Part shown: positions 35,493 to 38,212 of the stretch, in pieces
Layout of the letters: each line of letters starts with the position of its first letter
Position numbering within the stretch: position 1 is the first letter of the stretch
DNA from: Gammaproteobacteria bacterium
GTDB taxonomy: Bacteria; Pseudomonadota; Gammaproteobacteria; Steroidobacterales; PWYM01
Direction: 5' to 3'
DNA length: 46,818 nucleotides
NCBI GenBank assembly: GCA_020832005.1
Contig: JAFIFN010000014.1
Location: 1 to 46,818, forward strand
Position numbers and translations under genes: made by a program
Notes under the pieces: model-generated
Database searches by the model: none
What the model saw: only the letters and a program-made list of their open reading frames with translations
What the model was told of the DNA's origin: nothing

Positions 35493-36176
35493 TCACGCGC
35501 GCGCCACAGCGCACACGCTCAGCGACGCCGCGCCCGCTGCCAAGGCCGCCTCCGCCATGGCCGCCAGCGTCGCGCCGGTGGTCACGACATCATCAACCAG
35601 CAGCACGCGCCGACCGTGAATCCAGCGCGGGGATACCGCGAAGGCACCAGTGAGGTTCTGCCGTCGGGCGGCGGCTGGCAGGCCGGTCTGCGCCGGGGTG
35701 GCGCGCACCCGCCGCGCAGCCTCTGCACACAGCCCCAGGCCGTGGCGGCTGGCAATGCGTGCCGCCAGTTCCTGGGCCTGGTTGAAGCCCCGCAGCGCCA
35801 ACCGGGCCGGGTGCAGCGGCACGGGCATGACCAGTTCGGCGCAGTCGGCCGGCACATGGTCGGCCAGCAGTTCGCCGAGCGCGCAGGCCCAGGACAGGCG
35901 GCGGGAGAACTTCATGCCGATGACCAGCCCATCGACCGGCCAGGCATAGCGCCAGGGGATCCAGGCCCTGTCCCACGGCGGTGCATCAGCTCGACAACAG
36001 CCGGCCGGCAACGGGCGGCCGGCCGGCAGCTCATCGCCGCAGCGTGGGCAGGCGCGTCGCGGGCCCGGCAAGCCGCGTCGGCACGGCGTGCAGAAGAAAC
36101 GGTTGCCTGCCGGCTGCCTGCACAGCACGCATTCGCGGGGCCAGAGCCGGCGCAGCAGGGCAGCCCTGTCAACCAT
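35493..36176 (-). CDS. comF: ComF family protein (DNA uptake-associated amidophosphoribosyltransferase-like)
   Basis: A 227-residue ComF/GntX protein. An N-terminal zinc finger has four cysteine pairs (CVLC, FCTPC, CPRC, and GCC). The phosphoribosyltransferase-type C-terminal half has PVPLHPARLALRGFNQAQELA and the PRPP-loop VLLVDDVVTTGATL. Related proteins act in natural transformation; the biochemical role is unclear. The ATG at 36176 is favoured by AAGG six bases upstream. The longer frame to 36269 would run through the biotin operator. The start codon lies immediately beside the BirA operator, so comF expression may respond to biotin too. Confidence 0.9.
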   Translation of the reverse strand: MVDRAALLRRLWPRECVLCRQPAGNRFFCTPCRRGLPGPRRACPRCGDELPAGRPLPAGCCRADAPPWDRAWIPWRYAWPVDGLVIGMKFSRRLSWACALGELLADHVPADCAELVMPVPLHPARLALRGFNQAQELAARIASRHGLGLCAEAARRVRATPAQTGLPAAARRQNLTGAFAVSPRWIHGRRVLLVDDVVTTGATLAAMAEAALAAGAASLSVCAVARA

Positions 36177-36200
36177 AACTAGCCTTTTCGGGTTGACAGG
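36165..36200. promoter_or_regulatory. BirA (biotin repressor) operator between comF and bioB
   Basis: CCTGTCAACC (36165-36174) and GGTTGACAGG (36191-36200) form a perfect 10-bp inverted repeat with a 16-base spacer. This matches the known BirA operator architecture, TTGTnAACC-N14-16-GGTTnACAA. The right arm contains the TTGACA -35 of the bioB promoter, so bound BirA would block transcription. The left arm touches the comF start codon. The match is by arm sequence, spacing and gene context. Confidence 0.85.
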
Positions 36201-36222
36201 CATCGAGGTCCCCGCGAATACT
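36193..36222 (+). promoter_or_regulatory. bioB promoter
   Basis: A perfect -35 TTGACA (36193-36198) is followed after 18 bases by AATACT (36217-36222), a four-of-six match to TATAAT. The -35 lies inside the right arm of the BirA operator. The predicted start is near 36229, giving a leader of about 28 nt before bioB. Confidence 0.65.
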
Positions 36223-36256
36223 CCTGCCCCGAGCATCACCTTCGGGAGCACAAGAT

Positions 36257-37267
36257 TTGAAGCACGCAAAGCACGCGGTTGTCGTTGATTCGCCAGCCCA
36301 GCGCGGTCCGCGGCATGACTGGTCGGCGACGCAAGTCCTCGATTTGTTCGAGCTGCCGTTCATCGAGCTGCTTGATCGTGCCCGCGCCATCCACCGCGAG
36401 ACCTTTCCCGTCGGCGACATGCAGATCAGCACCCTGCTGTCGATCAAGACAGGCGCCTGCCCCGAGGACTGCGCCTACTGTCCCCAGAGCGTGCATTTCG
36501 ACACCGGCCTGAACCCCGAACGCCTCGCGCCGCTCGAGGAGGTGCTCAGCGCGGCGCGCGCCGCGCAGGCACATGGCGCCACCCGCTTCTGCATGGGGGC
36601 GGCCTACCGCTCACCGAGGCCTGCCCAGCTCAAGGCTATCGCCGAGATGGTGCGTGAGGTCAAGGCGCTGGGGCTGGAGACCTGCGCAACCCTGGGCATG
36701 CTCACTGGCGAACAGGCCCGAACACTCAAGGACGCGGGCCTGGATTACTACAATCACAATCTCGATACCTCCGAGCGCTATTACGCCGAGATCATCACCA
36801 CACGCAGCTACGCAGACCGTCTGGATACGCTCGCGCAGGTGCGCGGGGCGGGCCTTAAGGTGTGCTGCGGCGGTATTGTCGGCATGGGCGAGACGCGCGC
36901 GGATCGCGCCGAACTGCTGCGCACGCTGGCGAACCTCGATACCCACCCCGAGAGTGTCCCCATCAACCACCTGGTGCGGGTGCCGGGCACGCCGCTGGCC
37001 GATGCCCCCGCCCTGGATCCGCTGGAGTTCGTGCGCACCGTCGCGGTGGCGCGAATCCTGATGCCTGGCAGCCGCATAAGGCTCTCCGCCGGGCGCACCG
37101 ACATGAGCGATGAGACCCAGGCCCTGGCCTTTCTCGCCGGTGCCAACTCGATCTTCTATGGTGACCGGCTGCTGACCACGCCCAACCCCGAGGCCGACCG
37201 TGACATGCAGCTGCTGGCGCGGCTTGGCATCGAACCCGCCCGCGCCGAGGTCACGCAGCCAGCCTGA
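36257..37267 (+). CDS. bioB: Biotin synthase
   Basis: A 336-residue radical SAM enzyme that inserts sulfur into dethiobiotin. The [4Fe-4S] cysteines are C68, C72 and C75 in CPEDCAYC. The [2Fe-2S] ligands include the Cys in [10 protein letters not shown], the Cys in LETCATLG and the Cys in [14 protein letters not shown], plus the Arg in [16 protein letters not shown] and [12 protein letters not shown] complete the family signature. The start is TTG at 36257, with GGGAG eight bases upstream. It is under the BirA operator and precedes bioC; bioF, bioH and bioD are not in the window. Confidence 0.96.
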
Positions 37268-37303: not shown

Positions 37304-38212
37304 ATGGAGACCAACGCCAGCGGCTTGCCACAGCACCTGCGCCCCGACATCAGGCGCGTCAGGCGCGGATTTGATCGCAGGGCCGCAAGCTTCGAGCAGC
37401 AGGCCTTCATCGAACCGGCACTGCGCCAGCGTCTGCTTGAACGCCTCGCGCTGATCACACTGACGCCTGAGCGCATCCTCGACCTGGGCTGCGGCACAGG
37501 CCAGGCGGCGTTTGCGCTGGCCGGGAAATACCGTCGTGCGCAGGTGTTCGCGGCAGACCTGTCGCCGGCGATGCTCGCCCAGTGCGCACGCCGCCGGCCC
37601 TGGCGATTGCGCCGGCGTGTGCATGCGCTGTGCTGTGATGCCGGCGCGCTGCCGTTGCGCCGCGGCCGCGTCGACCTGGGGTTGTGCAAACTGATGCTGC
37701 ACTTGCACCCGGACCCAGCGGCGGTGGTCGCGCCGTGTCGCCGCGTGCTGCGGCCGGGCGGCCTGCTGCTGTTCAACACCTTCGGCCCGGATACGCTGCG
37801 TGAGCTTCGCAGCGCCTGGCGCCAAGTGGACACTCATGCCCACGTGAACCTGTTCATGGACATGCACGACCTCGGCGATGCGCTGCAGCGCGCCGGGCTG
37901 GGCGCGCCGGTGATGGACGTGGAGACGCTGACGGTGACCCATGAACAGCCTGAGGCGATGTGGCGTGATCTGCGTGCCACCTGCGCGGGCAATACGCTGG
38001 AGGGGCGGCCTAGAGGGCTGACGGGGCGCGCGCGGCACACCCGGCTGCTCGCCGCCCTGGAGGCGCAGCGCCGTGAAGCGCGCCTGCCGACCACGCTCGA
38101 GGTCGTCTACGGACACGCCTGGGGCCAGCCCGAGCCACCGGCGTCGCGTCCGGGCGAGGTGCGCATCCCGCTGTCGAGCCTGCGTCGGGGCGCCCGTTCG
38201 ACACCCGACTGA
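37304..38212 (+). CDS. bioC: Malonyl-ACP O-methyltransferase BioC
   Basis: A 302-residue class I SAM methyltransferase that methylates malonyl-ACP to open biotin's pimelate branch. DIRRVRRGFDRRAASFEQQAFIEPALRQ at the N-terminus (cited as the family's RRxFDRAAxxYexxA pattern) and ILDLGCGTGQAAFALA at about residues 58-73 are the typical motifs. LNLFMDMHDLGDAL-like NLFMDMHDLGDALQRAGL and LRATCAGNTLEG in the C-terminal half match BioC rather than general UbiE/UbiG enzymes. It is 36 bases downstream of bioB, probably co-transcribed. The last 40 residues are Arg/Pro-rich. Confidence 0.85.
   Translation: METNASGLPQHLRPDIRRVRRGFDRRAASFEQQAFIEPALRQRLLERLALITLTPERILDLGCGTGQAAFALAGKYRRAQVFAADLSPAMLAQCARRRPWRLRRRVHALCCDAGALPLRRGRVDLGLCKLMLHLHPDPAAVVAPCRRVLRPGGLLLFNTFGPDTLRELRSAWRQVDTHAHVNLFMDMHDLGDALQRAGLGAPVMDVETLTVTHEQPEAMWRDLRATCAGNTLEGRPRGLTGRARHTRLLAALEAQRREARLPTTLEVVYGHAWGQPEPPASRPGEVRIPLSSLRRGARSTPD

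Follow-up and report, generated by a model that had tools for sequence, protein, structure and literature searches.

A predicted BirA operator of bioB overlaps the start of a divergent comF gene in a gammaproteobacterium of the PWYM01 lineage

The window, i.e., the entire 46,818-nucleotide stretch of DNA analyzed here, contains two divergently transcribed units at its bioB locus. The forward strand encodes the biotin synthase BioB (36257-37267; TIGR00433, 394 bits against a cut-off of 225), followed by a second operon gene coding for a bioC-like methyltransferase (37304-38212), whose best match is TIGR02072 at 151.8 bits, below the cut-off of 184.95. bioB begins with a TTG that aligns with the ATG start of its congeners and has a GGGAG ahead of it (36244-36248). 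Its promoter comprises a TTGACA -35 element (36193-36198) and an AATACT -10 element (36217-36222) separated by 18 bp; this pair, matching the consensus at 10 of 12 positions, is the sole sigma-70-like match within 3 kb (shuffled sequences give a mean of 0.3), and both TTGACA and ATACTC are invariant in four congeners. The reverse strand carries a comF/gntX-family gene (35493-36176) for a 227-residue protein that combines a zinc ribbon (Pfam DZR_2) with a phosphoribosyltransferase domain (Pribosyltran) and scores below the curated cut-offs of the NCBIfam GntX/ComF models. The comF ATG (36176-36174) is preceded at a distance of 6 nucleotides by a putative Shine-Dalgarno-like AAAAGG (36183-36188 on the minus strand), and an alternative in-frame ATG is found at 36201-36203. 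On the minus strand, the 3-kb promoter scan recovered no comF promoter by consensus, and no conserved leftward -10 element stands out in the registered alignment columns.

Between the divergent genes lie two 10-base arms, CCTGTCAACC (36165-36174) and GGTTGACAGG (36191-36200), which are perfect reverse complements of each other and are separated by a 16-base spacer, ATAACTAGCCTTTTCG (36175-36190), equal in length to that of the Escherichia coli bioO operator. The initial annotation had described this arrangement of arms and spacer, its placement on the -35 element of bioB and the reach of its left arm to the comF start codon, and a direct reading of the sequence bears out all three. The TTGACA falls inside the right arm, such that the site overlaps the promoter of a biotin gene, whereas the left arm consists of the last base of the comF ATG and comF codons 2-4 (M-V-D-R). 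The spacer holds the other two bases of the comF start codon together with AAAAGG; if the alternative ATG were used, the entire operator would be comF coding sequence.

Palindromy by itself is little evidence for an operator and we dropped it as such, because about 2.1 perfect 10-bp inverted repeats with spacers of 10-20 are expected per window in Markov sequences. As judged by bioO-type half-sites, TGTNAACC and GGTTNACA with an allowed spacer of 14-16 bp, the site has zero mismatches and a spacer of 16. By chance, the 4.18-Mb genome should hold about 0.004 copies of the core TGTNAACC-N16-GGTTNACA; it holds one exact copy. A scan of the genome for a wider regulon, with a spacer of 16 and at most 3 mismatches, returned 31 sites, among which the one at bioB alone is exact. 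The next best (C63:1281, G000) has 2 mismatches and maps to the 3' end of a histidine-phosphatase-like gene, with no bio gene recognized there, and the bioF- and bioA-like loci of the genome have no site better than 4 mismatches. The related genome G002 displays a partial site, AACC-N16-GGTTGACA (L183, C174:16922-16949), in the neighborhood of a histidine-phosphatase-like gene as well as of transposase-like reading frames; the recurrence of histidine-phosphatase neighbors at this site and at C63 is possibly due to chance. Two further operator-like sites of G000 with 3 mismatches, C43:13272 and C173:4844, are near-identical despite being on different contigs, which suggests a repeated element.

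Upstream of bioB the motif is widely conserved. We compiled 108 bioB loci, 80 from named genomes and 28 from relatives of the window's genome, and found the operator motif with up to 2 mismatches ahead of bioB in 67 of them, against 2 of 1323 random 450-bp control stretches. We also anchored loci on GTTGACA alone, in order to avoid selection on both arms. Of the 69 loci in this set, 61 have TGTNAACC, again with up to 2 mismatches, leftward of the anchor at a spacing of 14, 15 or 16 bp, and every other spacing within 5-44 yields 0-5 matches. Moreover, operators precede bioB at loci with no adjacent comF detected (L027, L044, L088 and L099), indicating that bioB is the constant partner of the operator.

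The genome has a single detectable biotin protein ligase (L001). It couples an N-terminal HTH_11 domain (PF08279, 43.3 bits against a cut-off of 25) to the ligase domain PF03099 and aligns with E. coli-type BirA structures across the HTH; it is thus a group II BirA, and the objection that the ligase might lack a DNA-binding domain, raised in the initial annotation, does not apply. The E. coli bioO operator, TGTAAACC-N16-GGTTTACA, has the same half-sites, TGTNAACC and GGTTNACA, and the same 16-bp spacer, and the E. coli K-12 bioA-bioB gap reads CTTGTAAACC-N16-GGTTTACAAG, with the bioA ATG starting 9 bp to the left of the TGT. Both operators are situated directly upstream of bioB, abut a divergent gene on the left and occur together with an HTH-bearing BirA. 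They differ in that the left gene is bioA in E. coli and comF in the window, in that the comF ATG is shifted inward by 18 bp, which places it within the operator, whereas that of bioA lies 9 bp outside it, and in that the window's operon consists only of bioB-bioC, as opposed to the bioA-bioBFCD arrangement. BirA regulons of gammaproteobacteria were reportedly described by Rodionov in 2002. According to the accessible part of PMC5343134, biotin genes of gamma- and deltaproteobacteria are controlled by BirA sites, and the BirAs of alpha- and betaproteobacteria have neither an HTH nor a regulon; comF and the overlap of an operator with a start codon are both absent from that part of its main text.

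The distribution of the operator further tracks the DNA-binding domain of BirA. Among 26 genomes in which bioB was located and birA identified, the site (up to 2 mismatches) is present in 16 of the 18 whose BirA has a Pfam HTH_11 domain, the exceptions being G026 and G031 with 3-mismatch sites, and in none of the 8 lacking a Pfam HTH (G001, G003, G005, G008, G015, G028, G039 and G050). The BirA of G008 has an HTH-like N-terminus that gives no Pfam match; with G008 counted as HTH-bearing, the association has a Fisher p of 0.00018, a value that ignores kinship. On the bioB tree, HTH loss is confined to three branches, and hence a phylogenetic pair test cannot reach significance; one of the three, the G015 group, is weak evidence because its bioB is distant and has no adjacent comF. 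Within the window's genus, G000 and G002 retain the BirA HTH along with both operator arms, while G001 and G003, which are sister to G000, have neither the HTH nor the left arm but keep the -35 and -10 elements (GTTGACAG and ATACTC) as well as comF. G004 has neither bioB nor the BirA HTH. In the BirAs of G001, G003 and G004 (L162, L164 and L168), a group II enzyme has thereby become a group I ligase by natural conversion within a single genus. The joint loss of HTH and left arm with preservation of the promoter would be expected of a BirA operator, but not of a bare promoter or of coding constraint. BirA of Bacillus subtilis does not bind a half-site (PMC4016012), in keeping with regulation being lost upon loss of one arm. 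At the comF 5' ends of G001 and G003 (L128 and L129) there is no ATG at the usual position. Translation there probably begins at a TTG immediately left of the surviving TTGACA, which suggests that a new comF start arose once the operator had decayed.

These observations bear on two explanations that dispense with a repressor. The inverted repeat could have arisen by chance around a strong -35 element, in keeping with the roughly two perfect repeats of such spacing per window; the rarity of the specific motif and its recurrence in this position across dozens of genera refute this, and we regard it as scarcely credible. Alternatively, coding for the comF N-terminus (V-D/N/Y) might be the only reason for the conservation of the left arm, and the -35 element the only reason for that of the right arm. 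This explanation draws on the fixed frame in which comF runs through the left arm at about 80% of loci and on the TTGACA in the right arm, but it does not account for the left arm where comF was not found alongside, for the sharp preference in spacing or for the disappearance of the left arm exactly with the BirA HTH while comF stays. Within the left arm, the wobble positions of comF are nearly fixed and a non-synonymous one, the first codon position behind D/N/Y, is free to vary, which speaks against coding constraint; we weigh this pattern lightly because it was seen at called-site loci and is partly biased by their choice through the motif. Overall, such dual constraint appears very improbable as the sole cause, and we assign a probability of about 0.93 to 36165-36200 being the BirA operator of bioB. 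As such it would be ordinary in kind, an operator of the classical type, with the overlap of comF being its less ordinary aspect. Of the initial annotation's proposal, a BirA operator on bioB touching comF, the bioB part is upheld by the BirA HTH, the bioO layout, the conservation and the co-loss, and the overlap by its presence in many genera; the link between biotin and competence stays a prediction.

BirA binding, the response to the ligand and the repression of bioB at this site are inferred from sequence, and the following circuit can be envisaged. When biotin is plentiful and the acceptor proteins are filled, BirA charged with biotinyl-AMP would dimerize, and the two winged HTH domains of the dimer would bind both arms. 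The bound protein would then cover the bioB -35 element and block initiation, so that bioB-bioC would be turned off. Under biotin shortage, BirA would transfer its biotin and leave the DNA, allowing transcription of bioB-bioC.

The pathway under this predicted control is a reduced one. No bioD was found in G000-G004, nor any bioA, bioF or bioH above the family cut-offs; in the window's genome, the bioA and bioH matches are far below them. All bioA-like genes were rejected as under the family cut-off, and a bioF candidate on C226 of G000 was ruled out by its gene context as kbl, located beside tdh. The window's genome, which is 94% complete, accordingly does not present the full de novo set of bioA, bioF, bioD and bioH in addition to bioB and bioC, and missing contigs are an unlikely cause of the absent genes because G003 is rated 100% complete. 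The bioC-like methyltransferase is itself below the cut-off for BioC in a genome with no bioF, bioH, bioA or bioD partners above cut-off. In the order-mates G006 and G014, bioB is closely followed on its contig by bioF, bioH and bioD, and a bioA above the cut-off is located elsewhere. Most likely, then, the genus trimmed its biotin operon to bioB-bioC. No BioY biotin transporter was found; BioB could serve in the salvage of dethiobiotin. A repressor retained on the bioB-bioC remnant in G000 and G002 and abandoned in G001 and G003 would fit ongoing decay of the system.

The overlap of comF with the operator is no quirk of the window. Of the 51 loci with a divergent comF and a site, 41 share one comF frame with respect to the left arm, and in 47 the comF frame remains open across that arm; in the GTTGACA-anchored set, comF has the shared frame at the left arm in 39 of 48. 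Its ATG occupies the exact register of the window (+9 relative to the operator) at 11 of the 51 loci, including those of Nevskia, Microbulbifer, Kangiella and Zhongshania, and a GTG does so at 2 more. As both the frame and the start register recur across loci, the overlap is old and common to many gammaproteobacterial genera. The left arm and spacer constitute the comF start region, and any full-length comF transcript must start in or cross the operator; hence, a bound BirA dimer, sitting on or just downstream of the necessary comF transcription start, should hinder comF and may lower its expression. The precedent is E. coli bioO, where dimers of BirA-biotinyl-AMP repress both divergent transcripts, including that of bioA, whose ATG lies 9 bp away from this operator (PMC5438404). 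This precedent and the obligatory passage through the operator speak against the operator serving bioB only, with the comF overlap arising as a side effect of the close packing of divergent genes and comF being expressed regardless, e.g., because RNA polymerase displaces BirA or the promoter is tolerant. That explanation is in turn favored by the constancy of bioB as partner at loci where comF was not found alongside and by the want of a conserved comF promoter element, and we consider it a serious contender at a little short of even odds. Control of comF by biotin through BirA is likewise tentative, and we would not quite wager on it. The same slightly-below-even expectation applies to its generalization, namely that across many gammaproteobacteria BirA represses both comF/gntX and bioB from an operator in the comF start region, such that a gene for DNA uptake or use would go up when biotin is short, with start codon, Shine-Dalgarno-like sequence and operator arm under joint selection.

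A ComF-family protein (GntX in E. coli) is no proof of competence. A literature search for comF with biotin or BirA gave a single relevant find, the paper on the bioH-comFC neighborhood. We found no description of the conserved comF-operator overlap in the searchable papers, a set that excludes RegPrecise and the 2002 regulon paper, and we therefore make no claim of its absence from the literature. In gammaproteobacteria comFC/gntX is divergent from the biotin gene bioH, as the work of Akatsuka and co-workers is summarized in PMC5438404. The window resembles this case in the divergent arrangement of a biotin gene and a gene of the comF family; the partner there, on that summary, is a free-standing bioH outside BirA control in E. 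coli, as against bioB with a BirA operator here.

Together, these results confirm a classical repressor circuit, as predicted from its components, in a gammaproteobacterium of the PWYM01 lineage. They also uncover a natural experiment within one genus, in which the BirA DNA-binding domain and one operator arm were lost and the promoter was kept. If comF is indeed co-repressed, this would explain through regulation why gammaproteobacterial comF/gntX genes neighbor those for biotin, and would make it simple to test whether DNA uptake or use is linked to the biotin status of the cell.
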